Source of the DNA: an uncultured Porphyromonadaceae bacterium
GTDB lineage: Bacteria; Bacteroidota; Bacteroidia; Bacteroidales; Muribaculaceae
Direction: 5' to 3'
Assembly (NCBI GenBank): GCA_947175425.1
Contig: CAMWMR010000028.1
Span: 1-34,217 of the forward strand
Length of the DNA stretch: 34,217 nt
How positions within the stretch are numbered: the first letter of the stretch is position 1; each line of letters starts with the position of its first letter. Shown here piece by piece: positions 1,855 to 33,429 of this stretch. The notes beneath the pieces were generated by a model. That model was not told the origin of the DNA. It saw only the letters and a program-made list of their open reading frames with translations, and ran no database searches. The translations under genes were made by a program, and so were the position numbers.

Positions 1855-1874
1855 CGTTAGGTATATTTATACGG

Positions 1875-5104: not shown

Positions 5105-7639
5105 TTATCTACTGCGGGAGCTCAGAGGCTCTGCATCGGTTAGTTCGTTGCAAACGGTTTCGCCGTCAACTTTTTCCACAATCATTGTAGACTGAAGGAA
5201 TTTACGGGCGAAAGTACGTCCGTTAATTTCAAGGGGGTCGGAGCCATAGGCAATGGCTGCATCGGCTGCCGGATTTGTAATTACAAGATGCGGTTTCGCG
5301 GCTGTATCCATGCAGGCATCTATTGTCCAGTTTCCGACTACTATGGAATTGCTGTCGGTGTGCACTTGGGCAGCTTCGTCATTCTTCGGCGTAATTTGAA
5401 TAATTGCAAGATACCGCACTTTTGGCGCCGAACATGAGGCACTCAAATGCCATTGGGGCGGATATTGGCTGTTCTCGACAGCGGGAACTACAGCCCATTT
5501 GTCGGTTTGCGATATATTCAGTTTTTCGGAACAGAGGAAAGTTACTTTGGCCCTGTACGGCAGAGCATTGTCGCATACTTCCACAACGGTGTTGTCGTCC
5601 GAAATATCGAATTTGCTTTTGGAATGTAAAAGCCAGTCGATTCGAGCCGCTTGGGAGGCTTCAATCTCATCGTAAATCACAATTGCATCGGAACCGAGCA
5701 TTGTTATATGTCGCAGATATTTTGTAAGCGGGGTGGAACCGAATCCGTATTCGGGCGTCTGCTCTATTCCGGCAGCTTTAAAAGCGGCAATCCACATGGG
5801 GTCGTCCGAAATGCCGCAATAGGCATGAGAGGCATCGCCAAGCGCATAAGCTATTGAAGAACCTCCGCCGGCACGAAGAATACGCCCCCACCCTGCCGTT
5901 GAATAAGGCTGTCCGATACCATTTACAAGGATAGTGTTGTGTGCGCGCGAATGCCTGTAGGACATGAGGTTGTGCGCGTCGCTGAAATTCTGATAATATC
6001 CTGAAGAACGGAACACATCTGTTCCACCGAATGTTATGTTGAACGCATTCTGGCAAGCTGTGGTGTGACTTCCCGAGCCGAATGTGCTTGAACGGAATCC
6101 CAAGGCGAGGTCGCCCGAAGTATCGAAAATATTGCTGTGCATGGCAACTTCTCCGCAATCGCGGTTCCACTGCAACATGTCGGCACGGTCATCGGGCTGA
6201 GAGGAATAATTCTGCGGGCCGCGGCATATTCGGTATATCCGCATTTCGTAGTCGCGGTTTATAAGCGTGCCGCAGCGGTTTGCATACCAGGAGGCGTAGG
6301 CATCGCCTGTCTGATAAGCCATTACATCGGCAAAAGAGGCAATCTGGTGATTCGGTTCCTGCCTTGTCTCGCTTCCGTCGCCGAAACCTATGTTCGAGCC
6401 TGCCGGGGGAGTTGTAAAACTGAGTGCCCTGCCTGCGTTAAGATACCACGGATGACGGAAATAGTCGCAGCCGGTAATATACGACATCATCAAAGGTATG
6501 TAGCACAGAGTTTGTATGTTGGCGTTGAAATATCCGGTACCGTTGTGCCAAAGGCCGTCGCGGTTGAAACCGCCTGCCGGGGCACGAGCCGTCCACAACT
6601 CATACAGATACTCGAGCATAGGCATAACGCGCTGTCCCTGCACCGGGTCGTCGTACAGCAAAATACATGCCTGGAAGAAATTACGATAGTTATGTTGCCA
6701 GAAATGATTGTCGAAAATATGATTTTCCTCGTATCCCCGGAAGGTGTCGAAGTTCTTGCATATCACATCGGCCATCCACGCTGCAGCCTCCGCCCGTGTG
6801 GCGGAGTCAATCATTGTGTAACATATATCGTAGCAGGCGGCAAGAGAATACAACAGATTGGAAGTTGTGAAATTGGAACTGTAAAGAACCTTGTCGGAAG
6901 GGAGGTTGTCTGTAAATGATTTATAAATCAGGAGCAATTTATCGGCATACTCCTGTTGCCGTGTAAGGTAATAGGCCTGATAGAGCCATGTAACATTTTG
7001 TGCGAATTCCTCGGCTTTGGTATAAAAAGAGGCAATATTTGAAAAATCGGTATCCAAGGGCGCCTGAGCACGCTGAATCAAGGATTTATATTCGGCATGC
7101 GAACTTATATTGCTGCGGGCGCTTTCAACTGTTGCCGAGGTATAGCAGTGGAGGCGTGGGAAAATGCGCGGCGCACCGTTTATAAATGTATCGAATTGTG
7201 GAGTGACAAAGATTGGAGATTCGGCCGTCACTTCAAAATCGTAAGTATCGCTCCATTCACCGGCGTTGCCGGCAGCATCCATATTACAGAAACGCCAGTA
7301 CCAGCGACCTTGGGAAAGTTCCTCGTGAGGATTGAACATGTTCCATTTCAACGCTTTGCTGCTCAAGGTGCGGTCGGCGGGAAAATCGGGAGAGGACGAG
7401 AGCTGAAATACGACAGCTTCGCCGTCGGCCATGTTCTGCGGCACAATCAGCGGGGCGGGATTTATAAAAATCTCGTTACACGAACGGGGATAAGGCACCG
7501 TGCGAATTTTTTGCTGATATTCATCGGGAGATGAAATCGCGGGCAGCTCCTGCGGCTGCTGCGGCTCGACAGGCACGGGAATACTATCGCTGCAAGCGAC
7601 AAGCGATATGGCCAGTAGTGTGATTGCTGTGTATTTCAT
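5105..7639 (-). CDS. Heparinase II/III-type polysaccharide lyase, lipoprotein (lyase 2)
   Basis: An 844-residue lipoprotein of the DUF4962 plus heparinase II/III type. I chose the ATG at 7639 rather than the GTG at 7678, because it begins directly with a lipoprotein signal whose lipobox ends at Cys16 (LVAC). After an N-terminal Ig/fibronectin-like region (about 45-140) comes the alpha/alpha-toroid (about 180-460) and a C-terminal beta-sheet domain. Candidate catalytic residues are His312 (DNHFW), Tyr370 (HNGTGYF) and His525 (GSHTTACQNAFN), with RAHNTILVNG near residue 567. It is a paralogue of the lyase at 10964-13567, which has the same motifs in the same order. It should cleave uronic-acid linkages by beta-elimination, probably at the cell surface. 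The exact lyase family and substrate are not certain. A hairpin sits 15 bp before its start. Confidence 0.85.
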   Translation of the reverse strand: MKYTAITLLAISLVACSDSIPVPVEPQQPQELPAISSPDEYQQKIRTVPYPRSCNEIFINPAPLIVPQNMADGEAVVFQLSSSPDFPADRTLSSKALKWNMFNPHEELSQGRWYWRFCNMDAAGNAGEWSDTYDFEVTAESPIFVTPQFDTFINGAPRIFPRLHCYTSATVESARSNISSHAEYKSLIQRAQAPLDTDFSNIASFYTKAEEFAQNVTWLYQAYYLTRQQEYADKLLLIYKSFTDNLPSDKVLYSSNFTTSNLLYSLAACYDICYTMIDSATRAEAAAWMADVICKNFDTFRGYEENHIFDNHFWQHNYRNFFQACILLYDDPVQGQRVMPMLEYLYELWTARAPAGGFNRDGLWHNGTGYFNANIQTLCYIPLMMSYITGCDYFRHPWYLNAGRALSFTTPPAGSNIGFGDGSETRQEPNHQIASFADVMAYQTGDAYASWYANRCGTLINRDYEMRIYRICRGPQNYSSQPDDRADMLQWNRDCGEVAMHSNIFDTSGDLALGFRSSTFGSGSHTTACQNAFNITFGGTDVFRSSGYYQNFSDAHNLMSYRHSRAHNTILVNGIGQPYSTAGWGRILRAGGGSSIAYALGDASHAYCGISDDPMWIAAFKAAGIEQTPEYGFGSTPLTKYLRHITMLGSDAIVIYDEIEASQAARIDWLLHSKSKFDISDDNTVVEVCDNALPYRAKVTFLCSEKLNISQTDKWAVVPAVENSQYPPQWHLSASCSAPKVRYLAIIQITPKNDEAAQVHTDSNSIVVGNWTIDACMDTAAKPHLVITNPAADAAIAYGSDPLEINGRTFARKFLQSTMIVEKVDGETVCNELTDAEPLSSRSR

Positions 7640-7654
7640 GAAACTGAATTTTAA

Positions 7655-7688
7655 GATTACGGCGATGCGGTTGTGCACCGCCGTAATC
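7655..7688 (-). terminator. Strong hairpin between fimbrillin-like gene and lyase 2
   Basis: On the minus-strand RNA this forms a 14-bp stem: GATTACGGCG pairs with CGCCGTAATC, followed by a G-U pair and TGC/GCA, with a loop of about 6 nt. In plus-strand sense the wobble becomes an A/C mismatch, so the element is built for the minus strand. It begins 11 nt after the fimbrillin-like stop codon and ends 15 nt before the lyase 2 ATG. Only a short A/T-rich stretch follows and there is no room for a new promoter, so it may act as a partial terminator or an mRNA-stabilising element within the operon. Confidence 0.65.
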
Positions 7689-9249: not shown

Positions 9250-9276
9250 TTTGGTATATTTAGGTTTGATTAATTA

Positions 9277-10278: not shown

Positions 10279-10967
10279 ATTTTATACGAAAGTGAAATTC
10301 CCAAGCTTGTAGGACCGAAATAATCGCGTTGTCTTTTAGAAATCCAAGCGCCGTTATCGATGTTATAATATGTATTGTAGCACATGTTCACATAGCCTAT
10401 GCCAATGGCAAATTCAAGAGCCCAGTCGCGTCCGAGCGGCAATGTGTAGGAATAGTTTACGCTTGCTCCAAGTGCAGGACGGCCGGAGTCCTGATACCTC
10501 TTCTCGTTATATCGCATATTGAACCATGAAGCTGTTACACCGGCACCTAATGCACTGCCACGTCCGGGAGTACCGAAATAGTACTTTACTGCGGGCTGTA
10601 GAGTTGCTGTTCGCAAACCTTTTTCGGTGTTCCAGTCCCAGAACGACCAGATTACGGGGACTTCCACTGTCCATTTGGAAGCTACCTGCATTTCCCATGC
10701 AAGATTCAGCACGGCAAAAGCATCGTATGCCACGTTGGTTTTTATTGCCATATACCTGTTGGACGGAACCGCTTTGGGAGTTTCCTTTTTCACGGTTTTC
10801 TTCGCGGGTGCAGGCTTGGGAGCTGCGGGAGTGGCGCTTGTCGGAACCGTGGTTTTTTCGGCGGGCGCCGATGTCTGCACCTGCGGCTTCTGCGCCGAAG
10901 CGACAATTGAGCCGAACAACAGCAGAAAGGCAAATATTTGTTTATGTGATAATTTCATGTCGCTCAT
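10275..10967 (-). CDS. DUF3575-type outer-membrane beta-barrel protein
   Basis: A 230-residue protein with a signal peptide (cleavage after VASA, near residue 25), a Pro/Ala/Lys/Thr-rich linker (about 27-65), then a small beta-barrel domain with alternating hydrophobic strands ending in LGISLSYKI. The pattern NRYMAIKTNVAYDAFAVLNLAWE is typical of DUF3575 proteins, and the many Trp and Tyr residues suit an outer-membrane barrel. The linker could cross or contact peptidoglycan. The start overlaps the lyase 1 stop by ATGA and the end overlaps the next lipoprotein by ATGA, so it is locked into the operon. DUF3575 genes often sit beside fimbrillin-like genes in Bacteroidales. An alternative start three codons in (10958) gives a cleaner signal peptide. 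Confidence 0.75.
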   Translation of the reverse strand: MSDMKLSHKQIFAFLLLFGSIVASAQKPQVQTSAPAEKTTVPTSATPAAPKPAPAKKTVKKETPKAVPSNRYMAIKTNVAYDAFAVLNLAWEMQVASKWTVEVPVIWSFWDWNTEKGLRTATLQPAVKYYFGTPGRGSALGAGVTASWFNMRYNEKRYQDSGRPALGASVNYSYTLPLGRDWALEFAIGIGYVNMCYNTYYNIDNGAWISKRQRDYFGPTSLGISLSYKI

Positions 10968-13567
10968 ATTTCTAATTCGGGGAGCACATCTTCAAGTGTA
11001 GTGCGGTATCCAACTTCATTAATTACAGTTTCCTGTCCTTTATAGGATATGTTCACATCCTCCTTTGTACTGCGGATATAGAACGAGGGGGCACCCGACT
11101 CGGACAGATTCACACTAATAAGGTATCCGGCAAATTTTATGCGTCCGTCGGAAAGAATCTCGGGGTCTTTTGCGGGATGTTTCAGTGCATGGGTGTTTAC
11201 GCATGTGGCAAAGCGGTAGGTTTGGGCAGCTTTCGATGTTGCGTTGAAATGCCAGTGATTGGCAAAGGGTTTGAAATTGCCTTTTTCGTCGGCACGGAGC
11301 CAGTTTACGGCCGGTTCTCTAAATACGGAAGTAGTATCGGCATCGACAGCTCCCGACGAGAAAATCCAGGCATCGGAGGCTCCGCCTTTTCCGGTTGCCG
11401 TTACGTGTACGAACTTATCGGAGGACGTGTTCAATTCCATGGGATTTGTAACAGTGTGCAGCTGAAATGTCCATGTAACGGGCTTATCGGCCTCGAGTTC
11501 GTCGTATATGAATATACATCCGGTGTTGCCGAGCGTAACAATGTGACGGCGGAATTTTTTTACGTGATTCTCTGTGTCCCAGCCGTTTTCGGGAATATAT
11601 TGCACGTCGGACTGCTCGCCGCGCTGGAGCCACAACGGTGAAATAACAGGGCCATAGGCATTTGAGGCATCGCCGAGTACATAGCCGAGCCTGTCGCTCA
11701 TGTAATAACGCGGTATCCAGCCGTAACCTTCGACACCTATTTTCTGGCCGCATCCGTTAGCAAGTATGGTGTTGTGTCCCAAGGTTCCTCGGTGGCATAT
11801 CATTGAATGCTTGTCGGTGAACTCAATATGATGTCCGGCACTGTAGAAGAGCGGTTTGCCGCCATAGAAAGTGTTGAAAGCGTTTTGATTGGCAAGCGCG
11901 TGAGATGTTGAGCCGTAGGGTGAGCTGCGGAAACTCCACATTGCGTTTCCACCTACGCGATCCCAGTTCGTACACCACGAAGCAAGGCCGGTCTGCGGCA
12001 ACACGTATCCGTGGGGCAACTCGGGAAGCCCCGGGCCTTGAGGCAGAGGTTTGTCGCACAGAAGGCGGAACCATCCAAGGTCGCTCGGTTTTGCAAGTAC
12101 TGCTTTTTTCAGATAAAGAGAATCGGCTTTTAATGTGCGACGTACAAAATCGGCGGCGAAACTGTTGTTTTTGAGTCGTGCCATTGCATCGAGCTGGCCT
12201 ATACGCGCGGCATTGGGACGCGCGACATTCTGATGTCCGGAACCGTTACCTCCCGATTTGGAAAACGGGGGCTGCTGGAACATCATATACATTATATTTC
12301 CGTCGTACCAGGGATCGCTGAAAAAGTCGAATCCGGTTATACGTCCGTAGAGATATGGCAGGTCGACAAGCGTTTTGGTATTCACGGTAAAATACGAATC
12401 GCCGTTATGCCATCCTCCGTCCTTGTTCAGTCCGGGGAATCGCGCCAGCCAAAGGTTGTAGCAATAGTCGGTCCATAAATCGGCCTCGGGCAGTTCACCG
12501 AGCGTTGCAATTGCGGCCATAGCCGTTATTCGCATGGTCATTTGCCAAATATGGTTTTCGGCAATATGATTTTCAACATTATTATTGAACCGGGCATACA
12601 TTTTGGTACCTTTGTCCTTTATTTCATCGAGGAGGATTTTCTTTTGACTGTCGGACAAGAGATTAAAGAAAGAGTCGTAGGCAAGCGACGCCAGCGAAAG
12701 CATTGTACCGTCGTTAAAATCGCCTTTCACATTTTCGTTCTGCGACCAGGCACACATTGTTGTAATGCGTTTTACGGCTTCGTCGGCATATTTGCGGTTT
12801 TTTGTCAGCAGATACGCATATATAAGAGCCGTACAACTCTTTTCTTCTGCATCGATAATGCGGCGACTCTCGCGTGTGAGATAGGAGTTGCGCTGCATTT
12901 CGTTTGTGAGATTTCCGAGATTATCGGTGCGTATGTCCTCTATCCTTTTCATAGGAACAGCCATTGCCTTGTCGGCCTCCTCAATATACCACACAGCATC
13001 CTGTTTGCCCTTTGAGGCGGCTATGAATTTATCCCATTCGGCGGCATCGACAAGTACACGCGGATGTGTTGCGGGCACCTTGGATTTGAACTCGGCATAG
13101 GATGGCGGACAGAATTTATTTCCATTGTCGGCAATTGTTACATTATATACAGGACTCCATGTATCGTTACCGTTTTTGTCCACATAGGAATACTGCCAGT
13201 ACCACACCCCGTTTTTCAAATCTTTGTCGGGATTGTACATGGGCCAAATTGTCTCTACAATGGTTGTTCCCGTTTTAAAAGTTTTATCCTGTGAATATCG
13301 CAGGCGATATTTCAATTTGGATTTATCCACTTTTTTTACGGTATGCTCAAAGCCGTCGAGCGGCGCTCCAGTTCCCCGTGCTTCGACGGGCAATGGCCAT
13401 TGAAACGAAATTTTACGATCGTCGAGCACAGAACCGTCGGCAGGGAACGGAGTATCGCGGCTTTCGTGCATCAAACACACATCGTTTATCTGCAAGTTCG
13501 CTCCGGCCTTTGCTCCAAGCGCCGACATAATAATTATTGCAAAAAGAATAATGAAGTTCTTTTTCAT
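10964..13567 (-). CDS. Heparinase II/III-type polysaccharide lyase, secreted (lyase 1)
   Basis: An 867-residue protein with a type I signal peptide (cleavage after AKA, near residue 21), so it is probably periplasmic and soluble, unlike its lipoprotein paralogue. Domain order is an N-terminal Ig/fibronectin-like region (about 40-145, with WYWQYSYVD), an alpha/alpha-toroid (about 165-480) and a beta-sheet C-terminal half. Candidate catalytic residues are His339 (AENHIWQ), Tyr392 (HNGDSYF) and His556 (TSHALANQNAF); GHNTILANG lies near residue 598. This is the DUF4962 plus heparinase II/III layout found in several lyase families for glycosaminoglycan-like and other uronate polymers. It is the first gene of the long run toward susD and has a -7 box 25 bp upstream. 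The substrate is not known. Confidence 0.87.
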   Translation of the reverse strand: MKKNFIILFAIIIMSALGAKAGANLQINDVCLMHESRDTPFPADGSVLDDRKISFQWPLPVEARGTGAPLDGFEHTVKKVDKSKLKYRLRYSQDKTFKTGTTIVETIWPMYNPDKDLKNGVWYWQYSYVDKNGNDTWSPVYNVTIADNGNKFCPPSYAEFKSKVPATHPRVLVDAAEWDKFIAASKGKQDAVWYIEEADKAMAVPMKRIEDIRTDNLGNLTNEMQRNSYLTRESRRIIDAEEKSCTALIYAYLLTKNRKYADEAVKRITTMCAWSQNENVKGDFNDGTMLSLASLAYDSFFNLLSDSQKKILLDEIKDKGTKMYARFNNNVENHIAENHIWQMTMRITAMAAIATLGELPEADLWTDYCYNLWLARFPGLNKDGGWHNGDSYFTVNTKTLVDLPYLYGRITGFDFFSDPWYDGNIMYMMFQQPPFSKSGGNGSGHQNVARPNAARIGQLDAMARLKNNSFAADFVRRTLKADSLYLKKAVLAKPSDLGWFRLLCDKPLPQGPGLPELPHGYVLPQTGLASWCTNWDRVGGNAMWSFRSSPYGSTSHALANQNAFNTFYGGKPLFYSAGHHIEFTDKHSMICHRGTLGHNTILANGCGQKIGVEGYGWIPRYYMSDRLGYVLGDASNAYGPVISPLWLQRGEQSDVQYIPENGWDTENHVKKFRRHIVTLGNTGCIFIYDELEADKPVTWTFQLHTVTNPMELNTSSDKFVHVTATGKGGASDAWIFSSGAVDADTTSVFREPAVNWLRADEKGNFKPFANHWHFNATSKAAQTYRFATCVNTHALKHPAKDPEILSDGRIKFAGYLISVNLSESGAPSFYIRSTKEDVNISYKGQETVINEVGYRTTLEDVLPELEI

Positions 13568-15008: not shown

Positions 15009-16304
15009 CTAAAACATTCGGATTACAGGACTTTCGCCGTTAGCGAGGCGTTTGTATTTAACCAGCGCCTCAAGGAAATAATAATCGGCATAATTGAGGG
15101 GAGTGTCTATTTCCGAGCCGTGGGGCAATGAGCCTGTGGAATGCATGAGCACGAAATTTCCGTTTGTACCTTTTGTGGCAAGATAGCGCGGAGATGCCAG
15201 CGAGTGCAAAATACGTGTGGCATATCGGATATATTGCTGATTATCGGTGTGCGCGCCAAGTTCAAACAATGCCGAAGCTATTACAGCGGCAGCCGATGCA
15301 TCGCGCGGAGTAGTTTCTCCTGCCGGTGCGTCAAAATCCCAGTAAGGAACCAAATCATCGGTTTTGTTTTTATCAATTATAAGCTTTGCAACTTTTTCGG
15401 CATGGTCAAGATACTTTTTCTCACCCGTGTTACGGTAGAGTTCGGTATATCCGTACAAAGCCCAACCCTGTCCTCTTGCCCAGGCGGAATCATCGGCTTT
15501 ACCCTGAAAAGTCTGTCGGCGCTCCACAGAGCCGTCGGAATTGTAGCTCACAACATGGAAGCACGAGAAATCGTCGCGGAAATGATTTTTCATTGTTGTG
15601 TCGGCATGTCGGAGAGCAACGGTAACAAAGGATGAGTCACCCGTAATTTTGGCTGCGTTGAAAAGCAGGTCGAGGTTCATCATATTGTCTATGATAACGG
15701 GATAATTCCAAGGGCCGAAGTCCCACGAGCGTATACACCCTGTTTTGTCATCGAAGCGTCCTGCGAGGTTATAAGCAGTTTTTACAACCACGTTTTTAAT
15801 TGAATCGTGAGGCGCGAGACGATTGGCGTTGCCATAGCTGCAATTAACCATAAAGCCGAGGTCGTGGGTATCGGTCATGTCGGAAACCGGCAACAGCCTA
15901 TTGGTGAACTTAACGGCTTGCTCTTTAAGTTTTTCGTTTCCTGTCAGTTCGTAGGCATACCACAGCGAGCCCGGGAAAAAACCGCTTGTCCAGTCGGCAT
16001 ATCCTACGAGCGACACTTCACGAAACTCTTCGGGAGCAGGATGCTTCAACAGCTCTATTTCGGGTTTGAAACTATCGACAGGAACTTCCATTTGTGCAGT
16101 TAGCTGTTCCAGAGAATAGTCGGTTTTGAGAGCACGGGGAAAAAGAATTGTGGAATCGCAGTAATCGGCGGCTGCAAGCAACTGTGCTTCCGCAAGGTCG
16201 ACGGCGTTGTCGAACCATTCGGAGCCGGCAGGCTCAACGGTGGCGCTGTTTCCGCAGGAATAAAGAGCGGAGGCGGCAATAAAAAGAGTTATGTAATTTT
16301 TCAT
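15009..16304 (-). CDS. GH88 unsaturated uronyl (glucuronyl) hydrolase
   Basis: A 431-residue GH88 enzyme that hydrates the double bond of the unsaturated uronic acid left at the non-reducing end by a lyase, releasing it from the oligosaccharide. The two catalytic aspartates are readable: Asp148 in THDLGF and Asp206 in IIDNMMNLDLLF, matching the Asp pair of characterised unsaturated glucuronyl hydrolases. WARGQGWALYGYTELYR and the C-terminal YADYYFLEAL are also typical. The N-terminus is a signal with Cys17 (LYSC), a somewhat imperfect lipobox, so it is probably a lipoprotein facing the periplasm. The start overlaps the fucosidase stop by ATGA, so both are made together. It supplies the monosaccharide consumed by the KduI-KduD-KdgK-Eda operon. 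Confidence 0.93.
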   Translation of the reverse strand: MKNYITLFIAASALYSCGNSATVEPAGSEWFDNAVDLAEAQLLAAADYCDSTILFPRALKTDYSLEQLTAQMEVPVDSFKPEIELLKHPAPEEFREVSLVGYADWTSGFFPGSLWYAYELTGNEKLKEQAVKFTNRLLPVSDMTDTHDLGFMVNCSYGNANRLAPHDSIKNVVVKTAYNLAGRFDDKTGCIRSWDFGPWNYPVIIDNMMNLDLLFNAAKITGDSSFVTVALRHADTTMKNHFRDDFSCFHVVSYNSDGSVERRQTFQGKADDSAWARGQGWALYGYTELYRNTGEKKYLDHAEKVAKLIIDKNKTDDLVPYWDFDAPAGETTPRDASAAAVIASALFELGAHTDNQQYIRYATRILHSLASPRYLATKGTNGNFVLMHSTGSLPHGSEIDTPLNYADYYFLEALVKYKRLANGESPVIRMF

Positions 16305-23857: not shown

Positions 23858-25216
23858 ATGAAAAAACGAATTGTCTCAGTACTGTTTTTGCTTGCATCCG
23901 CTTTCTCGGTTTATGCTTCAAAGCCCAACATTATATATATAATGACCGACCAACAGAGTGCAAATGCAATGAGTTGTGCCGGCAATGAAAATCTTTCCAC
24001 TCCCAATATGGACCGACTTGCCGAACACGGGGTGCGTTTTAATAACGCCTACTGTGCCATGCCGCTTAGCGGCCCGTCGCGCTCGGCCATGTTCACCAGT
24101 TATACCCCCTCGGCCACGGGAATGCAGGAAAACGAGACTCCCCTGCCCGACTCTTTGCGAAACCGCACACTGGGGAATATTATGGAACAGGCGGGATATG
24201 CAAACGGCTACAGCGGCAAATGGCACGTAAACACCAATTCACTGCCGGCCGACACTGCTTTCGGGTTCCGAAATCTGCACGGGCATAATGATACGGGTCT
24301 TGCCGAGGCTGCCATTGAATTTCTAAGAGAAGATCACGGCGACAAACCTGTGTTTTTGGTTGCGTCGTTCGACAATCCTCACAATATATGCGAATGGGCG
24401 CGAGGGCAGAAAATGCCTTTTGCGGAAGTTCCGGAAACAGCTGTCGACAGTTGTCCTAATCTGCCTCCCAACTTTAACATCAACCCCTACGATGCCGATA
24501 TTCTACGTTGGGAACGCGAACGCAGCTATCGCCTATACCCCACAAAGGGATACACTGCCGACGACTGGCGCAGATACCGTAATGCCTATTTCCGACTTGT
24601 AGAACATATCGACAGCGAGATAGGCAAGATTGTCGATGAAATCGACAGGCAAAATCTTTGGGATAACACGGTTGTTATTTTCACATCGGACCACGGTGAC
24701 GGACAAGGCGCTCACCAATGGAATCAAAAAACGGCGCTGTGGGAAGAGGTTGCAAATGTTCCGATGATTGTATGCCTTCCAAAAGGCAAGAATGCCGGAA
24801 CGGTGAGCGAGGCTCTTGTAAACAACGGAATAGACCTCATGCCTTCGGTGCTTGATTTCGCCGGAGTGGCGGCGCCTTATTGGTGCAAAGGAACGAGCTA
24901 CCGGAACTGCGCCGAAAATCCGAAAAATACAGGCAATAACGAATATATTGTTGTGGAAACCAATTTCGCCCAGACAGGCGGTACCCGTGGATGGGCAGTG
25001 AGAACTCCTCATTATAAATATGTACTGTATGAGGCCGGCAAAAATCGCGAAATGTTTTTCGATATGGAAAACGACCGCCTTGAACAAGTTAATCTTGCCA
25101 TTGAGGGCAAATATAAGGAAGAGCTTAAAAAACACAGGGAAATGCTGCGCCAATGGATGGAGACTAATCTTATTGGCGAACAGTACCCCTCTACCCGATT
25201 CATACCTGTAAACTAA
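23858..25216 (+). CDS. Ser-type sulfatase (S1 family), exported
   Basis: A 452-residue type I sulfatase with a signal peptide (cleavage after YAS or VYA, near residue 20-21). The active-site motif is SGPSR, with Ser71 as the residue that becomes formylglycine (S-x-P-S-R). Metal ligands are suggested by Asp31 (MTDQQ) and by FTSDHGDGQGAHQW; YSGKWH carries the active-site Lys and His. Ser-type sulfatases need an anSME, which is encoded in the same locus. It would remove sulfate groups from the imported oligosaccharide in the periplasm. It leads the plus-strand operon; kduD follows after 16 bp. The sugar and position desulfated are not readable from the motif alone. Confidence 0.93.
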   Translation: MKKRIVSVLFLLASAFSVYASKPNIIYIMTDQQSANAMSCAGNENLSTPNMDRLAEHGVRFNNAYCAMPLSGPSRSAMFTSYTPSATGMQENETPLPDSLRNRTLGNIMEQAGYANGYSGKWHVNTNSLPADTAFGFRNLHGHNDTGLAEAAIEFLREDHGDKPVFLVASFDNPHNICEWARGQKMPFAEVPETAVDSCPNLPPNFNINPYDADILRWERERSYRLYPTKGYTADDWRRYRNAYFRLVEHIDSEIGKIVDEIDRQNLWDNTVVIFTSDHGDGQGAHQWNQKTALWEEVANVPMIVCLPKGKNAGTVSEALVNNGIDLMPSVLDFAGVAAPYWCKGTSYRNCAENPKNTGNNEYIVVETNFAQTGGTRGWAVRTPHYKYVLYEAGKNREMFFDMENDRLEQVNLAIEGKYKEELKKHREMLRQWMETNLIGEQYPSTRFIPVN

Positions 25217-25232
25217 TAAACCAACCATAATC

Positions 25233-26042
25233 ATGACAACTATTACAACCGACATGTTTTCGCTGCAGGGCAAGACTGCCCTTGTAACCGGAGCGGCCTA
25301 CGGAATAGGTCTTGCAATAGCCCGCGCACTGGCCGGAGCCGGGGCTAAAATAGTTTTCAACTGCTCGCGCCGTGAAACTCTTGAACGCGGCATGAACGCC
25401 TACAAGGAGCTTGGAATCGATGCTAAAGGCTATCTCTGCGATGTTACCGACGAGGAAGCCGTTAAAAACATGGTTGCCGACATTGAGAGTACTGTAGGTA
25501 CTATCGATATTCTCGTCAACAACGCCGGAATAATAAAGCGTGTACCAATGGAAGAAATGGCCGTTGAGGATTTCCGCCGTGTTATCGACGTGGACCTTGT
25601 CGCGCCTTATATATGTGCCAAGGCCGTGATACCCGGCATGATAAAAAAAGGACATGGGAAAATTATAAACATATGCTCGATGATGAGCGAGCTCGGACGC
25701 GAAACTGTAAGCGCTTATGCAGCTGCAAAAGGAGGCCTTAAAATGCTCACCCGTAACATATGCTCCGAATTCGGCGAACATAATATACAATGCAACGGAA
25801 TAGGTCCCGGCTACATTGCCACCGAACAGACAGCCCCGCTTCGCGAACGTCGTCCCGACGGCAGCCGTCATCCTTTCGATGAGTTCATCATTGCCAAAAC
25901 TCCGGCAGGACGCTGGGGAAATCCCGAGGATTTAATGGGGCCGGCCGTGTTCCTGGCTTCCCATGCTTCCGATTTTGTAAACGGCCACGTGCTGTATGTC
26001 GACGGCGGTATACTTGCCTATATCGGAAAACAGCCTCAATGA
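25233..26042 (+). CDS. kduD: KduD-type 2-dehydro-3-deoxy-D-gluconate 5-dehydrogenase (SDR)
   Basis: A 269-residue short-chain dehydrogenase without a signal peptide. The NAD(P)-binding TGAAYGIG is at 19-26, NNAG at 96-99, and the catalytic Ser149, Tyr162 and Lys166 (YAAAK) are in place. The C-terminal GHVLYVDGGILAYIGKQP is typical of the KduD/gluconate 5-dehydrogenase group of Bacteroidales. With kduI, kdgK and eda in the same operon, the likely reaction is reduction of 3-deoxy-D-glycero-2,5-hexodiulosonate to 2-keto-3-deoxygluconate (KDG) in the cytoplasm. Automatic annotation may name it gluconate 5-dehydrogenase. Its stop overlaps the next start by ATGA. Confidence 0.88.
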   Translation: MTTITTDMFSLQGKTALVTGAAYGIGLAIARALAGAGAKIVFNCSRRETLERGMNAYKELGIDAKGYLCDVTDEEAVKNMVADIESTVGTIDILVNNAGIIKRVPMEEMAVEDFRRVIDVDLVAPYICAKAVIPGMIKKGHGKIINICSMMSELGRETVSAYAAAKGGLKMLTRNICSEFGEHNIQCNGIGPGYIATEQTAPLRERRPDGSRHPFDEFIIAKTPAGRWGNPEDLMGPAVFLASHASDFVNGHVLYVDGGILAYIGKQPQ

Positions 26043-27181
26043 AAAGCTTAGCAGTTAGTGCAGCAACTGTAATAGGCATGGCGCTTTCGTCGTGTGCGGA
26101 GGTGCATACCATAACAGTATCAAATGATTCCGACATTGAGCGCAGTGCCGAAATTGTGGAGATTGACGCCGGCATTCTCGATTCTATAATGCGACACAAG
26201 CCTTTCAGGATTCTTGATGCGGACAACAGAGAGCTGCCTTACCAACGCACTTTCGACGGGAAAGTAATATTTCCGGCATCGGTGGGCGCCCGAAAATCGG
26301 TAAAATATACTGTCAGCGCCGGAATGCCTGCCGAAACCGATACGCTTGCAACGGGAAATATTTATCCCCGGCGCAAAGACGACCTTACATGGGAAAACGA
26401 TCGCTGTGCATACCGCGCCTACGGACCAGCATTGCAACAGAGCGGCGAACGCGCTTTCGGCTACGATGTTTGGACAAAATCAGTGGCCGTTCCTGTAGTT
26501 GCAAAACGCTACGAGGATGCTTTTTCCGGCGCAAAGAATCTGCATGAGGATTATGGCGACGGAATGGACGTGTACACTGTCGGTCCGACATTGGGAGCCG
26601 GAACGGGCGCTCTGATGGATTCGTGTGATGCACTGATATATCCATATTGTTTCAAATCGTTCGAGATACTCGATAACGGCCCGCTACGCTTCACGGTAAA
26701 ACTTGCGTACGACTCGGGAGCCGGTGACAATGTGAGCGAGACGAGGCTCATCAGCCTTGACGCAGGGGCATTTCTGAACAGGACGTCCGTATGTTTCAAC
26801 GGGCTCCACAGGGCTCATAAATATGCTCCCGGAATAGTATTGCACCGACAGAATCCCGACGGTTATTCATTGCACCACAAGGAGTCGGTAATGGCCTATG
26901 CCGACCTCACCGATAACGAGCATGCCGGCAACGGAATAATATTCATCGGCATTGTGGCGCCTCAGGCCGACACATTATGCGTGAGGGATCTTCCCTCCGC
27001 CGAGGGCGATGCAACCGGACATCTGCTGGCTAAGAGTATATACGAACCGGGCGATACATATACTTATTATTGGGGCGCGGGCTGGTCGAAAGGGGCTATG
27101 CCCGACTGGCAGACATGGAAAGAATATCTGCTGACATTCCGACGAAAGCTCGAGAAGCCTCTCAAAACAGAAATAAAGTGA
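26039..27181 (+). CDS. DUF4861-type lipoprotein in the uronate operon
   Basis: A 380-residue protein with a lipoprotein signal (LSSC, Cys19), so it is membrane-anchored and faces the periplasm or the surface. The body matches the DUF4861 pattern as I remember it: an N-terminal Ig-like strand block (ITVSNDSDIERSAE), ENDRCAYRAYGPALQQSGERAFGYDVWTKS near 120-150, LHEDYGDGMDVYTVGPTLGAG near 170-190, and a C-terminal YYWGAGWSKGAMPDWQTWKEYL. Conserved Asp, Glu, His and Trp residues suggest a sugar-acting beta-sandwich enzyme. It overlaps kduD by ATGA and the permease by TGATG, so it is tied to the handling of the released uronate. A role before import, such as conversion or binding of the keto-uronate, is inference; no reaction is assigned. 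Confidence 0.75.
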   Translation: MKSLAVSAATVIGMALSSCAEVHTITVSNDSDIERSAEIVEIDAGILDSIMRHKPFRILDADNRELPYQRTFDGKVIFPASVGARKSVKYTVSAGMPAETDTLATGNIYPRRKDDLTWENDRCAYRAYGPALQQSGERAFGYDVWTKSVAVPVVAKRYEDAFSGAKNLHEDYGDGMDVYTVGPTLGAGTGALMDSCDALIYPYCFKSFEILDNGPLRFTVKLAYDSGAGDNVSETRLISLDAGAFLNRTSVCFNGLHRAHKYAPGIVLHRQNPDGYSLHHKESVMAYADLTDNEHAGNGIIFIGIVAPQADTLCVRDLPSAEGDATGHLLAKSIYEPGDTYTYYWGAGWSKGAMPDWQTWKEYLLTFRRKLEKPLKTEIK

Positions 27182-28602
27182 TGGAAGAAATTTTTAAATA
27201 CATAATAGGTCTTGGCGCTGCGGTAATGATGCCCGTGATATTTACCGTTACAGGTATCTGCATAGGCATCCGTGCAGGCGAGGCCGTGAAATCGGGGCTG
27301 AAAATCGGCGTAGGCTTCATAGGCTTGTCCATAGTCACCGCTCTGCTGACATCGGCATTGGGGCCTGCGCTCAATGCCATAGCCGGTATCTACGACCTGC
27401 AACTCAAGGTATTCGACATGGGCTGGCCTGCCGCAGCTTCGGTAGCTTATAATACAGCTGTCGGGGCGTTCATCATTCCGGTGTGTCTTGCGGTGAACAT
27501 TATCATGCTTGTCACCAAAACTACGCGAACGGTTAACATCGACCTTTGGAATTACTGGCATTTCGCATTTATAGGCGCTGTTATATATTTTGCATCCGAT
27601 TCGCTTGCGTGGGGATTCTTCGGAGCTATAGTATGTTATATAATAACAATGGTTCTGGCCGATATGACGGCGCTGAAATTTCAGAATTTTTATAAAGGGA
27701 TGGATGGGATATCCATTCCGCAGCCATTCTGTGCCGGTTTTGTACCGTTTGCAATCGTCATAAACAAAGTTCTTGACAAAATACCGGGAATCAACGGCAT
27801 AGACATTGACGCCGAAGGGATGAAAAAGCGTTTCGGTCTTCTGGGCGAGCCGTTGTTCCTTGGTGTTGTTGTGGGTGTGGGTGCAGGTTGCCTCACATGC
27901 CGTTCGGCTTCCGAGATTGTGGAAAAAATACCTTATATACTTGGCATAGGTATTAAAATGGGAGCTGTAATGGAACTTATTCCACGCGTTACAGTGCTTT
28001 TTATCGAAGGTCTCAAACCTATAAGCGAGGCAGCCCGCGCGCTTATTGCCCGTAAGTTCAAAGAAGCCGACGGCCTGAATATAGGCATGAGCCCCGCTCT
28101 TGTCATCGGCCACCCGACAACGCTTGTTGTATCATTGCTTCTTATTCCGGCCACTCTGTTTATTGCCGTTATTCTGCCCGGAAACAGATTTCTCCCCTTG
28201 GCTTCGCTGGCAGGAATGTTCTACATATTTCCTCTCGTACTTCCGTTTACACGTGGAAATGTATTCAAAACATTTATAGTGGGGCTTGTCATAATAGTTG
28301 CCGGGCTCTATATGGTTACGAATCTTTCGGCGGCATTCACACTTGCGGCCACGGATGTATATGAGGCCACCGGCGATGCGGCAGTTGCCATTCCCGAAGG
28401 TTTTTCGGGCGGCAGTCTTGATTTTGCGGCCAGTCCGCTGGCATGGCTTATTTACCAATGCTCCATAAACCTTAAGTGGATAGGGGCAATTCTACTGAGC
28501 CTGTGCAGCATGGCCTTGATGTGGCGTAACCGCGTACTCATAATTCGCAACCGCAAGGAAATGGAACGAGCCGGTTCCGATAAAATACAAACAACCGAAT
28601 AA
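27181..28602 (+). CDS. GatC-type PTS EIIC permease without PTS partners
   Basis: A 473-residue membrane protein with about 10-12 hydrophobic segments. It resembles the galactitol EIIC (GatC) along its length: LGPTVMLPI-like start (LGAAVMMPVIF), RAGEAVKSGLKIGVGFIGL, VFDMGWPAAAS, VDIWNIWH-like NIDLWNYWHFAFIGA, KFGPFGEP-like KRFGLLGEP (Gly-Glu-Pro at 222-224), ALVIGHP (His311) and LPGNRFLPLA. Length is close to the about 450 residues of GatC. I chose ATG 27181, which overlaps the DUF4861 stop, over an upstream TTG. No EIIA, EIIB, HPr or EI gene is in the window, and Bacteroidota generally lack a working PTS. It is therefore probably a secondary carrier for a uronate breakdown product such as the KduI product. 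The fold is sure; the substrate is inferred. Confidence 0.9.
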   Translation: MEEIFKYIIGLGAAVMMPVIFTVTGICIGIRAGEAVKSGLKIGVGFIGLSIVTALLTSALGPALNAIAGIYDLQLKVFDMGWPAAASVAYNTAVGAFIIPVCLAVNIIMLVTKTTRTVNIDLWNYWHFAFIGAVIYFASDSLAWGFFGAIVCYIITMVLADMTALKFQNFYKGMDGISIPQPFCAGFVPFAIVINKVLDKIPGINGIDIDAEGMKKRFGLLGEPLFLGVVVGVGAGCLTCRSASEIVEKIPYILGIGIKMGAVMELIPRVTVLFIEGLKPISEAARALIARKFKEADGLNIGMSPALVIGHPTTLVVSLLLIPATLFIAVILPGNRFLPLASLAGMFYIFPLVLPFTRGNVFKTFIVGLVIIVAGLYMVTNLSAAFTLAATDVYEATGDAAVAIPEGFSGGSLDFAASPLAWLIYQCSINLKWIGAILLSLCSMALMWRNRVLIIRNRKEMERAGSDKIQTTE

Positions 28603-28610
28603 ACCTATAT

Positions 28611-29633
28611 ATGAGTAAAATTGTAACCCTTGGCGAAATTATGCTTCGCCTTTCGCCTGCCGGAAGCAAGCGCTTTGTACAGGCCGATAATTTTGAAATA
28701 ATATGGGGCGGAGGTGAGGCCAACGTTGCCGTAAGCTGCGCCAATTACGGCCACGACGCTTATTTTGTGAGCAAACTACCCGAACACGAGATAGGACAGG
28801 CTGCAGTAAACGCTCTGCGACGTTATGGTGTAGATACCCGTTACATTGCACGCGGAGGAAAACGTGTGGGTATATACTACTGTGAGACAGGTGCATCCAT
28901 GCGGCCTTCTAAAGTGATATACGACCGCGCCGACAGTGCCATTGCCGAAGCACTCCCCAAAGAGTTCGACTTCGATGCCATTATGGAAGGTGCCGACTGG
29001 TTTCATTGGAGCGGCATAACCCCGGCACTGAGCGACAGCGCTGCCGAACTTACCCGTCGGGCTTGTGAAGCGGCAAAACGCCACGGAGTCATGGTATCGG
29101 TCGACCTCAACTTCCGTAAAAAGCTTTGGACAAGCGAGAAAGCTCAAAGCATAATGCGTCCGCTCATGAAATATGTGGATGTATGTATCGGAAACGAGGA
29201 AGACGCCGAACTTTGTCTGGGCTTCAAACCCGATGCCGATGTGGAAGCCGGAAACACCGCCGCCGAAGGATACAAGAATATTTTCAAGGCCATGATGACG
29301 GAATTCGGATTCAAATATGTGGTATCCACATTGCGCGAAAGCTACTCGGCAACGCACAACGGCTGGAAAGCGATGATATTCAACGGCGTGGAATTCTACG
29401 AGAGCAAGCGGTACAATATAAATCCTATTATCGACCGCGTGGGAGGCGGCGACTCTTTCTTGGGAGGACTCATCCATGGCTTGCTGACAAAAGCCGGTCA
29501 AGGCGAAGCGCTCGAATTTGCAGTGGCTGCCTCGGCTCTCAAACACACAATAAACGGAGATTTCAATATTGTTTCCACTGCCGAAGTAGAAGCATTGGCA
29601 GCCGGAAATGCTAACGGAAGGGTTCAACGATAA
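28611..29633 (+). CDS. kdgK: 2-keto-3-deoxygluconate kinase (PfkB family)
   Basis: A 340-residue PfkB/ribokinase-family sugar kinase. Family marks are GEIMLRLSPAG at the start, the WGGGEANVAVSCA motif near 32-44, SVDLNFRKKLW near 153-163, and the ATP/anion-hole signature DRVGGGDSFLGG with the catalytic base Asp281. The N-terminal and RKKLW patterns are those of KDG kinases. It phosphorylates KDG to 2-keto-3-deoxy-6-phosphogluconate (KDPG) in the cytoplasm. It starts 8 bp after the permease and its stop overlaps the aldolase start (TAATG). The neighbouring kduD and eda support the substrate. Confidence 0.93.
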   Translation: MSKIVTLGEIMLRLSPAGSKRFVQADNFEIIWGGGEANVAVSCANYGHDAYFVSKLPEHEIGQAAVNALRRYGVDTRYIARGGKRVGIYYCETGASMRPSKVIYDRADSAIAEALPKEFDFDAIMEGADWFHWSGITPALSDSAAELTRRACEAAKRHGVMVSVDLNFRKKLWTSEKAQSIMRPLMKYVDVCIGNEEDAELCLGFKPDADVEAGNTAAEGYKNIFKAMMTEFGFKYVVSTLRESYSATHNGWKAMIFNGVEFYESKRYNINPIIDRVGGGDSFLGGLIHGLLTKAGQGEALEFAVAASALKHTINGDFNIVSTAEVEALAAGNANGRVQR

Positions 29634-30289
29634 TGGCACGATTCGACAAACTTACCGTATTGACCAAAATGGGAGCTGCCCCTGTTGTTCCGGTATTCTA
29701 TCACAGCGACGCCGCCTATGCCTGCAGCATAGTAAAAGCGTGCTACGACGGAGGTATACGCACCTTTGAATTCACAAACCGAGGCGATTGCGCCCACGAG
29801 GTATTTGCCGAAATAGTTAAATTCGCAGCTCGAGAATGCCCGGAAATGGCTGTCGGAGTCGGCTCGGTTGTAGAACCCGCCACAGCAGCGTTGTACATCC
29901 AGCTTGGGGCATGCTTTGTTGTGGGGCCTTTGTTCAATCCCGATGTAGCCAAAATATGCAACCGAAGAGGTATTTTGTACACACCGGGCTGCGGCAGTGT
30001 AAGCGAGGCCGGATTCGCTCAGGAAGCCGGATGTGACTTGTGCAAAGTTTTCCCGGGCGATGTCCTTGGACCTCAGTTCGTAAAAGGAATACTCGCCCCT
30101 ATGCCTTGGAGCAAATTTATGGTAACCGGGGGCGTGGAACCGAGCCGGGAAAACCTGTCGGCCTGGTTCAATGCCGGCGTGTATTGTGTTGGAATGGGCA
30201 GTAAACTTTTTCCTAAAAACGCCACACCTGCCGAGATTAGCGACAAATGCCGCAATGCACTGGAATTTATTGAAACACTCAGGAAATGA
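29633..30289 (+). CDS. eda: KDPG aldolase (2-dehydro-3-deoxyphosphogluconate aldolase)
   Basis: A 218-residue class I aldolase of the KDPG/KHG family. The Schiff-base lysine is Lys138 in [11 protein letters not shown] and the catalytic glutamate is Glu46 in [26 protein letters not shown] is the phosphate-binding end of the barrel. It cleaves KDPG to pyruvate and glyceraldehyde 3-phosphate, the last step of uronate breakdown. It overlaps kdgK by one base (TAATG) and kduI by four (ATGA). Length is normal and there is no signal peptide. Confidence 0.94.
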
Positions 30290-31206
30290 AAAAACTTATA
30301 ATTGCAATAGCAGCTGTCATAACTGCTGTCTCGGCTATGGCTGAGACAAACTATACTATTCTTCGCGCCTGTCATCCCGACGATGTAAAACACTACGACA
30401 GCGAGCAACTACGCGCTCATTTTATGATGCCGAAGGTTATGGAGCAAAATGTGATTAATCTCACCTACTCCATGTACGACCGAATAATATATGGTGGCGT
30501 TGTACCCGTGGAGATGACGGTTATGCTCGAAACCATTGAACCGCTTAAGGCCGATTATTTTCTTGAACGGCGTGAACTCGGCGTAATCAACATCGGGGGC
30601 GACGGCATTGTAACTGTCGACGGAACAGAGTATGAGCTTCACTCAAAGGATGCCCTTTACATTGGCAGAGGCGCTAAAGAAGTTGGTTTTGCGAGCAAGA
30701 ACTCATCCTCCCCGGCAAAATTCTACCTCAATTCAACTCCGGCACATAAGTCCTATAAGACACAGCTCGTTACTATCGACGGCCGCCGCGGTTCCATTAA
30801 AGCCAATCGCATAAAAGCCGGCTCCTTGGAGGAAAGCAACGACCGTATAATAAATCAGCTTATCACAGGCAATGTTCTTGAAGAAGGACCGTGCCAACTG
30901 CAAATGGGGCTTACCGAATTAATGCCCGGCTCGGTGTGGAACACCATGCCTCCTCATACCCACGACCGCCGTGTTGAATGCTATTTTTATTTCAATGTCC
31001 CTCAAGACAATGCCATTTGCCACTTAATGGGTGAACCGCAGGAAAACCGCCTTATATGGCTGCACAACGAACAGGCCGTAATGGCACCCGAATGGAGTGT
31101 ACACGCCGCCGCCGGAACATCCAACTACATGTTCATATGGGGCATGGGAGGCGAGAATCTCGACTATGGCGACATGGATAAAATAACATATCTTGAACTC
31201 AAGTAG
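30286..31206 (+). CDS. kduI: KduI-type 5-keto-4-deoxyuronate isomerase with signal peptide
   Basis: A 306-residue cupin-type isomerase that converts 4-deoxy-L-threo-5-hexulose uronate to 3-deoxy-D-glycero-2,5-hexodiulosonate. It aligns to E. coli KduI throughout ([55 protein letters not shown]). The zinc ligands are His224, His226, Glu231 and His273, offset by a constant 28 from the E. coli residues 196, 198, 203 and 245. Unlike E. coli KduI, it begins with a textbook signal peptide (MKK, hydrophobic core, AMA then Glu20). The ATG used overlaps the eda stop (ATGA); an internal ATG at 30337 would give a cytosolic form of 289 residues. Export is therefore likely but not proven. Confidence 0.93.
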
Positions 31207-32506
31207 AACGATATTGGAAGCAACATCGTATACTATGGCTCAGGCCATAGCCGAAGCCAAACGCTGCCTCAACTGCAAAGTACCGCAATGCCGGAAAGGC
31301 TGCCCTGTTGGAAATGATATTCCGGCTTGGATTCATGAGCTTTCCATGGGTAATATAGGCAACGCAATGAGCATTATCAATACCCGCAGCAATCTGCCGG
31401 CCGTATGCGGACGCGTGTGCGCTCACGAACGCCAATGCGAGGGAAACTGCGTGCTCGGTAAAAAAGGCTCACATATAAATATAGGGCGACTTGAACAATT
31501 TGTGGCCGACTTCGATACTAAAATGCGCCTCACACGCTGTGCTATTGTACAGAAAAACCGTGGACGTGTGGCTGTGATAGGAAGCGGGCCGGCAGGGCTG
31601 ACAGTTGCCGGCGAACTCGCCCGCACAGGTTTCGACGTGGAAATTTTTGAAATGGAGCCTCAGCCGGGAGGTGTGCTCATGTTCGGCATTCCCGAATACC
31701 GCCTGCCCAAAGATATTGTCAGCAGCGAAATCGACAAAATATGTCAGCTTGGAGTTAGAATCAATACCGGTGTGACCATAGGCTCGGATATAAATATCGA
31801 CCAACTTTTTGAACGTGGTTTCGATGCAATTTTTATGGGTACCGGAACCGGGAAGCCCAAAAAACTCTCCATACCCGGTATCGAAAACGACAAGGTACGT
31901 CAGGCCATATATTTCCTCCGACGCGTAGGACTTTACAACGCCGGCCTCATATGCCGCGATGAAGTTCCGGTTTCGGAAGGTGACACCGTTTTCGTTATCG
32001 GATGTGGAAATACAGCCATCGACGCGGCTCGGTCGGCAATGCGGCTCGGGGTAGGCAAGGTTACAATAATCTACCACCGAGATATCGAACGAATGAGCGC
32101 CTTGAAAGCCGAATACAACGAAGCCGTTGACGAGGGCGTGGAATTTATGTGGAATTCATCGGTAAAAGCCATTGCCGCAAACGGCAGCGCGCTTGAGCTG
32201 ACAGTTGACGAGGCCGGAACGGAGCGCACGCTATACGGACAAAAAGTGATTCTTGCCATTGGGAGCCGACCCGCCAGTCGTATAGTATCCACAACCCACG
32301 GCATAGAAGTGGACGAAAACGGATATGTAATTACCCGCGACATCCCATATGGCATGACAACCCGCAAAGGAGTATTTGCAGGCGGCGATGTTGCAGGGAA
32401 TCAGGCAACAGTGGTACATGCAATGTCCAATGCAAAAGAGGTGGCAGCCGGAATAGCTACCTATGTGGACGCAATAAAACTGATGCAGGCAATCGACAAA
32501 CGTTAG
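31193..32506 (+). CDS. GltD/NfnB-like NAD(P)-dependent FAD oxidoreductase
   Basis: A 437-residue flavoprotein of the glutamate-synthase small-subunit family. Two N-terminal iron-sulfur clusters are indicated by Cys25, Cys28, Cys33, Cys37 and Cys72, Cys76, Cys82, Cys86. FAD binding is at VIGSGPAGL (about 128-136), NAD(P) binding at [21 protein letters not shown], and the end motif is [29 protein letters not shown]. The start is a TTG overlapping kduI by 14 bp; the ATG at 31235 is the alternative. I prefer upstream initiation because the Tyr-Thr just before that Met is conserved in relatives. The large glutamate synthase subunit is not in the window. It may balance NADH/NADPH for the KduD step or be a stand-alone glutamate synthase or NfnB-like subunit; the electron partner is unknown. 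Confidence 0.85.
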
Positions 32507-32817: not shown

Positions 32818-33429
32818 TCAAAAAATATTCTTATCGGTAGCATATAATAGAATTGCTTTGTCTGAATCACTTTTTACATTGTGGATAATATTAAATGTGT
32901 AACCTGAAACAGTAAAACACCCTTGACTGAGAGGCAAGCAAGGCAGTCCAAATATGCAAACATCCGGCAATCCGTCATGTATCAATATACCTCTTACATA
33001 AGCATTTGAATTTGTAGTATCCAGCCCATGTAACTCTATTGCATTAAGATTATACTTGGTAGCCTTCCTGCTTATTCCAAGCTTATAATGTCCGAGACTT
33101 GAATAATTGCTACCATTCTTGTTACTAAACTTAGGTTTAAAAATACAATCGAAGTCTTTTCCGATACCATGAGCACATAGACCTGAGTGGTCTATTCTAT
33201 TATTCTGTAAATCCACAATAAACAGTCTCTCTTTGCCGGAATAGATAGAATAGTCAATTATAATACAATATCTTTCGCAGAGATTGTGTTGTTTGCAATA
33301 CTCCTTTAACTCATTACACAATTCAGAGTTGATAGAAGTTTTAAGTGAGCGACCCCAAGCAAAAGATATGATTGTTAAGAAAATAAGGCTAAATATTACA
33401 ATGAGAAGTAATTTAATAATCTTTTTCAT
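32818..33429 (-). CDS. L,D-transpeptidase-like (YkuD_2) protein, membrane-anchored or exported
   Basis: A 203-residue protein with an N-terminal hydrophobic segment (about 5-24). The C-terminal half follows the murein L,D-transpeptidase-like (YkuD_2) pattern: SSLGHYKLG near 110-118, IELHGLD near 131-137, YVRGILIHDG with His151, and LSQGCF with Cys171 as the predicted catalytic thiol. Such enzymes act on peptidoglycan peptides in the periplasm. The start overlaps the stop of the upstream transglutaminase-like gene (TAATG), so the two are translated together. It is short compared with usual family members and the sequence is AT-rich relative to the PUL. The fold call is fairly good; activity is not established. 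Confidence 0.75.
   Translation of the reverse strand: MKKIIKLLLIVIFSLIFLTIISFAWGRSLKTSINSELCNELKEYCKQHNLCERYCIIIDYSIYSGKERLFIVDLQNNRIDHSGLCAHGIGKDFDCIFKPKFSNKNGSNYSSLGHYKLGISRKATKYNLNAIELHGLDTTNSNAYVRGILIHDGLPDVCIFGLPCLPLSQGCFTVSGYTFNIIHNVKSDSDKAILLYATDKNIF

Follow-up and report, generated by a model that had tools for sequence, protein, structure and literature searches.

Galactitol-type permeases and the uronate locus

The closest described system to the protein considered here is GatC of the galactitol phosphotransferase system (PTS) [Transporter Classification (TC) 4.A.5; PF03611, TIGR00827; PDB 9u82], with which it shares full-length homology and core residues. The protein, an orphan EIIC-GAT permease, is encoded in a 34,217-nucleotide stretch of DNA from an uncultured Porphyromonadaceae bacterium of the Muribaculaceae (GenBank assembly GCA_947175425.1, contig CAMWMR010000028.1, positions 1 to 34,217), called the window throughout. 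It differs from GatC in that no IIA, IIB, HPr or EI is detected with it, that it scores below the TIGR00827 cut-off, that serine or threonine replaces D304, and that it is linked to uronate genes. Sequence comparisons make it probable that this PTS-derived EIIC has left the PTS and would work on its own as an elevator-type carrier of a uronate intermediate, with 3-deoxy-D-glycero-2,5-hexodiulosonate (DKII) as its cargo.

The study of the Bacteroides protein TC 4.A.5.1.4 is reportedly that of Zafar and Saier. The single galactitol IIC homologue of Bacteroides is described in it as PTS-free in five of seven strains, and such proteins were suggested to be secondary carriers; the available part of the paper names no substrate for them (PMC6281302, 2018). 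The window's EIIC and TC 4.A.5.1.4 probably belong to the same family. PTS-free IIC carriers in Bacteroides were already proposed in 2018, and what is added here is the tie to uronate and the link to an apparently exported KduI. The genes are called monocistronic in that study, as far as its available text goes (PMC6281302), whereas in Bacteroides and Phocaeicola isolates kduI lies after EIIC in the same orientation, directly so in ten loci (L157, L159, L165, L167, L169-L171, L179, L181, L186), in one of which (L157) kduI is split into two open reading frames (ORFs). UlaA is described as a member of the same ascorbate/galactitol superfamily with an elevator mechanism, but it works with UlaB and UlaC, unlike the orphan EIIC (PMC6048161). 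A streptococcal PTS for an unsaturated hyaluronan disaccharide is likewise reported to serve glycosaminoglycan (GAG) catabolism, with enzymes for 5-dehydro-4-deoxyglucuronate (DHU) downstream, as here; it has EIIA, B, C and D components, however, imports a disaccharide and is paired with a cytoplasmic hydrolase, unlike the orphan EIIC (PMC6045597; PMC12838403).

For the inner-membrane step of uronate use, the available text of a GAG review names no carrier in the case of chondroitin sulfate and only a putative hexose transporter in the case of heparan sulfate. A specific EIIC candidate would make this step testable, and EIIC would show that a PTS permease can operate in nature without its phosphorylation chain. 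The 2013 paper on Bacteroides regulons is said to be by Ravcheev et al. Its accessible part describes a KdgR uronate regulon, and reports a few periplasmic or extracellular proteins as members of this and four other regulons (PMC3878776). In the literature searched, neither a link between EIIC and uronate nor an exported KduI was found reported; a prior mention in the supplement of PMC3878776 is possible, and the paper belonging to PDB entry 9kd0 was not found.

Linkage of EIIC to KduI

The galactitol-EIIC likeness claimed by the earlier note, a reading of the window's sequence alone, extends along the whole protein: PF03611 is matched at 249.3 bits (cut-off 24.2) over profile positions 1-384 of 394, placing the protein in the EIIC-GAT family, residues 3-440 match the solved galactitol IIC 9u82 with an E value of 2.1e-84, and the GEP and IGHP motifs are present at 222-224 and 309-312. 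The score against the galactitol-specific model TIGR00827 is 374.9 bits, under the cut-off of 542.2, so that membership in that narrower group is not supported. The same note had described overlapping start codons for the gene between DUF4861 and kdgK, which holds upstream, where the EIIC start overlaps the DUF4861 stop (27179-27183), but not downstream, where the PfkB kinase gene begins 8 bases past the EIIC stop.

EIIC was counted over the PF03611 cut-off and KduI at E <= 1e-20. Among 197 genomes of a family-level sample, 61 carry EIIC and 62 carry KduI, and 61 carry both, giving a Fisher p of 1.2e-50 under the assumption of independent genomes, which they are not. The extra KduI genome (G121) holds a 57-residue fragment that was kept in the count; from the 63 PF03611 hits of the family, two below the cut-off (G031 and G054) were dropped and one cut by a contig end (G108) was retained. 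In an order-level sample of 265 genomes, all eight with EIIC also have KduI. The source genome itself has one KduI and a single PF03611 protein. The two genes are also neighbours: KduI or KduD lies on the same strand and within 6 kb of EIIC in all 59 family loci that were fetched and in 78 of 80 genome_contigs loci, two sets that overlap in contigs, and in the two remaining loci (L122 and L178) the contig ends shortly after EIIC. Within the 59 family loci, KduI is linked in 56, KdgK in 39 and Eda in 27, and in B. finegoldii the EIIC-KduI pair stands beside pectinesterase genes. The tie to uronate breakdown, which the earlier note had drawn from the position of the gene, is supported by the 61 genomes shared with KduI.

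A related operon, kduD-EIIC-kdgK-eda, is found on a plasmid of the Gram-positive Lactobacillus intestinalis (L182:7134-11016, plus strand), with an EIIC of 52% identity; no IIA or IIB was found in the 17 kb plasmid stretch. The plasmid searches gave one non-Bacteroidota protein above 50% identity among the matches listed, and a scan of viral_contigs yielded no further orphan EIIC. Around kduI loci without EIIC, ORFs with at least six hydrophobic stretches were collected within 7 kb, and no group of similar proteins reached more than 7 of 36 loci; five candidate carriers scanned were of major facilitator, Nramp-like, exchanger, sodium:solute symporter and sulfate types. With the best group at 7 of 36 loci and the types mixed, no shared replacement carrier is named.

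Absence of PTS partners and residue changes in the permease

None of 22 window ORFs scanned with Pfam matched a PTS partner, in agreement with the earlier note, which had reported no EIIA, EIIB, HPr or EI in the window. The genome-wide search that it had suggested as a check gave the same picture in an assembly of 2.50 Mb and 99.99% completeness: the EI N-domain was not found, the best HPr match reached 15.5 bits (cut-off 23), the best IIB match 11.4 bits (cut-off 23.6), and no EIIA-2 match exceeded its cut-off. EI was found in 0 of 67 EIIC-bearing genomes tested, whereas the same search was positive in 7 of 14 control genomes. IIA and IIB models built from PTS-linked loci recover all 12 such loci; run over 159 loci and the window, they found no partner in the orphan loci searched (best E 0.12). 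Because EI, HPr, IIA and IIB are all undetected in its own genome, and EI in all 67 genomes, EIIC is set apart from the PTS group translocators (TC 4.A.5), which combine cognate IIA and IIB with cellular EI and HPr. The wider statement that Bacteroidota generally lack the PTS fits the window's genome, which has no EI, but has to be narrowed for the phylum, since 273 of 392 genomes in a phylum sample have EI, every matching row lying outside the window's class and order.

In a tree of 46 EIIC proteins, also proposed by the earlier note, a single branch (support 100/100; 200 of 200 bootstrap trees) separates the 34 orphans, among them the L. intestinalis protein, from the rest, so that they form one clade. 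Under midpoint rooting this clade falls among PTS-linked relatives, several of whose branches are long. All 33 Bacteroidales orphans share Q181, P182, K215 and S342. Position 304 is serine in 32 of them and threonine in one, as against aspartate in 12 of 12 PTS-linked EIICs (two of these being near-identical Salmonella proteins); serine or threonine also occupies it in 59 of 59 and 82 of 82 orphans of two overlapping sets, the window's EIIC has serine there, and the L. intestinalis protein has Q181, K215, T304 and S342. Positions 181 and 342 separate the groups less sharply: 181 is glutamine in orphans and histidine or threonine in PTS-linked members, one of which also has glutamine, and two PTS-linked EIICs also have S342. 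D79, W82, D121, H127 and D161 are core residues common to both groups. An anionic cargo would be in keeping with the lost acidic residues and the added lysine. A GatC variant of E. coli, S184L, is reported to carry xylose, and S184 lies three residues after His181, the position that is glutamine in orphans. Mapping of the pocket on UlaA was abandoned, the alignment being weak (probability 5%); as a suggestion, EIIC 181 may correspond to UlaA His194 and 304 to Asp314, one alignment ending one residue before Asp314. The absence of EI from the 67 genomes and of IIA and IIB near orphans, the 61 shared genomes, the single clade and the lost aspartate together support the earlier proposal of a PTS-fold carrier that works without the PTS and is tied to uronate.

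A signal-like N-terminus on KduI

The window's KduI, which passes NF002091 at 390.5 bits (cut-off 250) and has the HxHx4E motif, which we take to be the metal motif of KduI, belongs to the KduI equivalogs, and its first 20 residues read by eye as a Sec-type signal. For wider comparison an N-terminus was called signal-like when its mean hydropathy was at least 1.8 over 11 residues and a basic residue was present, a rule of our own and not SignalP. In 146 EIIC loci, ten of which yielded no 5'-complete KduI match, 134 of 137 5'-complete KduI copies pass this rule (108 of 111 distinct N-termini). Two of the three misses (L048 and L172) are just below the cut, and the third is a second copy in L148. 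That copy (L148:16201-17124, minus strand) is encoded on the other strand, next to a further KduD-like gene, and shares its locus with a signal-bearing KduI.

By contrast, none of 35 KduIs from Bacteroidales without EIIC pass (35 of the 62 available were used), nor do three KduI copies that stand apart from EIIC in EIIC-bearing records. Four KduI copies on contigs without EIIC in four EIIC genomes (L244-L247) all pass, each within 400 bases of a contig end, where the operon may be split; L248, beside EIIC, passes as well. The rule is rarely positive for the other enzymes (KduD 2/109, KdgK 1/79, Eda 0/60) and nearly always for DUF4861 (52/53) and GH88 (6/6). HxHx4E is kept in 30 of 30 signal-bearing KduIs sampled. 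In PDB entry 9kd0, a KduI, the match starts at chain residue 2 as against residue 20 of the window's protein, which suggests that the depositors trimmed a signal peptide. On a tree of 68 KduIs the signal label requires three changes, at least two of them forced, and a second independent gain (L237 and L239) is possible. KduI therefore appears, from these N-termini, to be exported where EIIC is present. If true, KduI, usually drawn as cytoplasmic, would act in the periplasm in many Muribaculaceae and in some Bacteroides and Phocaeicola, and its annotation should consider the N-terminus.

Proposed route of uptake and alternatives

In the established pathway, as given in the available part of the sources, KduI makes DKII from DHU and KduD reduces DKII; in Bacteroidota, kduI is reported to be combined with dhuD. 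The sequence itself shows which genes are present and how they are linked, that recognisable PTS proteins are missing, that KduI has an N-terminus of the export type and which residues have changed; what is carried and in which direction, the context-based enzyme roles and the pull on uptake are inferred. Lyases and a GH88 hydrolase would release unsaturated uronate in the periplasm, where it would open to DHU, and exported KduI would convert DHU to DKII. Should the only detected KduI be periplasmic and KduD cytoplasmic, DKII would have to pass the inner membrane; as the linked membrane protein, EIIC is the candidate for its import. KduD would then reduce DKII to 2-keto-3-deoxygluconate (KDG), KdgK would phosphorylate KDG, and Eda would split the resulting 2-keto-3-deoxy-6-phosphogluconate (KDPG), so that reduction and phosphorylation, perhaps together with an ion, would draw the cargo in. 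The idea in the earlier note that the KDG kinase stands in for PTS phosphorylation survives in part: the kinase would act in the cytoplasm on KDG, but after reduction by KduD and not on the cargo itself.

DUF4861 may take part in this route. DUF4861 and EIIC form one stop-free frame in five genomes, four of one genus (L036-L039) and a Rikenellaceae metagenome-assembled genome (L166), and both domains were found by Pfam in the two fusion proteins scanned. Fusion of UlaB to the C-terminus of UlaA is reported to place that terminus inside (PMC6048161), and by parity the 11 helices of UlaA would put its N-terminus outside. Since, in addition, the N-terminus is on average more acidic and the C-terminus more basic in the orphans than in PTS-linked EIICs, a periplasmic DUF4861 on the EIIC N-terminus would be topologically sound. 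The predicted DUF4861 model (predicted local distance difference test 90.8) resembles sugar beta-supersandwich proteins (GH38, PL26, HepC; TMq 0.28-0.51), and the protein has many invariant polar residues. The whole scheme, in which uronate is isomerised in the periplasm and a PTS permease has been captured as a PTS-free DKII importer, with DUF4861 sometimes fused as a delivery or processing module, is marginally favoured.

Several observations weigh against import of DKII. KduI does not depend on EIIC in general, since 62 of 70 order-level KduI genomes are without EIIC, and some EIIC-locus contigs were counted twice (e.g. L057 = L102). The signal rule is also positive for 42 of 146 EIICs, so that a cleaved signal and a membrane anchor are not separable by it. 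Two enzyme names are given by context: for the KduD-like short-chain dehydrogenase/reductase (SDR), the NCBIfam name over cut-off is gluconate 5-dehydrogenase (NF005488, 492.8 bits) and the KduD model TIGR01832 is not passed (233.4 bits, cut-off 338.85), which is a weak point, and for the PfkB kinase no KDG kinase model of NCBIfam passed, the best match being an aldolase-kinase fusion for KDPG and 2-keto-4-hydroxyglutarate (KHG) (NF041633, 525.9 bits, under the cut-off of 700). In L. intestinalis kduI was not found on the plasmid stretch, the chromosome being outside the scope of the search; EIIC with kduD and no kduI in the stretch nevertheless fits import of the KduI product. Finally, DHU or unsaturated uronate could be the cargo if a cytoplasmic isomerase was missed by the KduI search.

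This last reading, a PTS-free EIIC that brings in unsaturated uronate or DHU for isomerisation inside, is unlikely but the most serious of the alternatives. Linkage to KduI alone predicts it equally well, and in the available literature on GAG use by Bacteroides monomers are described as passing the inner membrane; yet the sole detected KduI of this genome has a signal-like N-terminus, the L. intestinalis EIIC accompanies kduD in a stretch that lacks kduI, and the dhuD-dhuI cluster is reported, in the available text, to be absent from Bacteroidota, a statement that does not cover DhuI alone. Import of KDG, the product of KduD, is improbable: many loci link the kinase (39 of 59) and the aldolase (27 of 59) to EIIC, as does L. 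intestinalis, but KduI is linked more often than the kinase (56 of 59), and KduD, signal-like in 2 of 109 cases only, is an SDR enzyme, for which cytoplasmic NAD(P)H is the expected cofactor.

Since neither fold nor family determines what is transported, some other cargo, for instance a neutral sugar released by the same polysaccharide utilization locus (PUL), with KduI linked through shared regulation only, might be considered; the shared presence and absence of EIIC and KduI across 197 genomes and the linkage in B. finegoldii and the Lactobacillus operon make this slightly less credible still than carriage of KDG. Coupling to phosphorylation through divergent PTS proteins would be in keeping with D79, W82, D121 and H127, shared with PTS-linked members, and with the sub-cut-off HPr and IIB matches, but is very hard to reconcile with EI in 0 of 67 EIIC genomes against 7 of 14 controls, the lack of IIA and IIB near orphans and the lost aspartate at 304.

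Gene neighbourhood of the window

The sulfatase, KduD-like SDR, DUF4861, EIIC, kinase, Eda, KduI and GltD-like oxidoreductase genes form a tightly packed run on the plus strand (Table 1), and 22 of 59 family loci have a relative of the last close to EIIC. Together with the minus-strand genes, this run suggests that the window is a PUL acting on a sulfated glycan that contains uronate.

Table 1. Features of the window, with positions counted from its first nucleotide.
Feature	Position	Strand	Evidence
Sulfatase	23858..25216	+	PF00884 173.6 bits; signal-peptide-like N-terminus; upstream of KduD-like gene
SDR dehydrogenase, KduD/DhuD by context	25233..26042	+	no signal peptide seen
DUF4861 protein	26039..27181	+	PF16153 275.2 bits; lipobox-like N-terminus
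Orphan EIIC-GAT permease, 473 amino acids	27181..28602	+	PF03611, 9u82; residue signature Q181, K215, S304, S342
PfkB-family kinase, KdgK by context	28611..29633	+	PF00294 117.8 bits
KDPG/KHG aldolase (Eda)	29633..30289	+	NF005499 339.4 bits, cut-off 275 passed
KduI, 5-dehydro-4-deoxy-D-glucuronate isomerase	30286..31206	+	NF002091 390.5 bits; signal-peptide-like N-terminus
Predicted KduI signal peptide, residues 1-19	30286..30342	+	translation read by eye; hydropathy 2.99
GltD-like NAD(P)-binding oxidoreductase	31193..32506	+	last gene of same-strand run
GH88-like protein, unsaturated uronyl hydrolase candidate	15009..16304	-	PF07470 36.1 bits, cut-off 26.6; lipobox-like N-terminus
DUF4962 and heparinase II/III-like protein, lyase candidate	5105..7678	-	PF16332, PF07940
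DUF4962 and heparinase II/III-like protein, lyase candidate	10964..13567	-	PF16332 655.7 bits, PF07940
SusD (169-1854) and SusC (1875-5084)	169..5084	-	PF07980, PF07715, PF00593

A 179-residue ORF at 33429-33968 on the minus strand adjoins an L,D-transpeptidase-like gene and matches nothing in Pfam or NCBIfam at E 0.001. Between the two lyase candidates, at 7699-10967 on the same strand, lie genes with DUF6562 and DUF3575 that overlap each other and the DUF4962 gene; ORF 7699-9249 had no match in the Pfam scan. The minus strand also encodes a fucosidase, a radical SAM protein and a hybrid two-component regulator.

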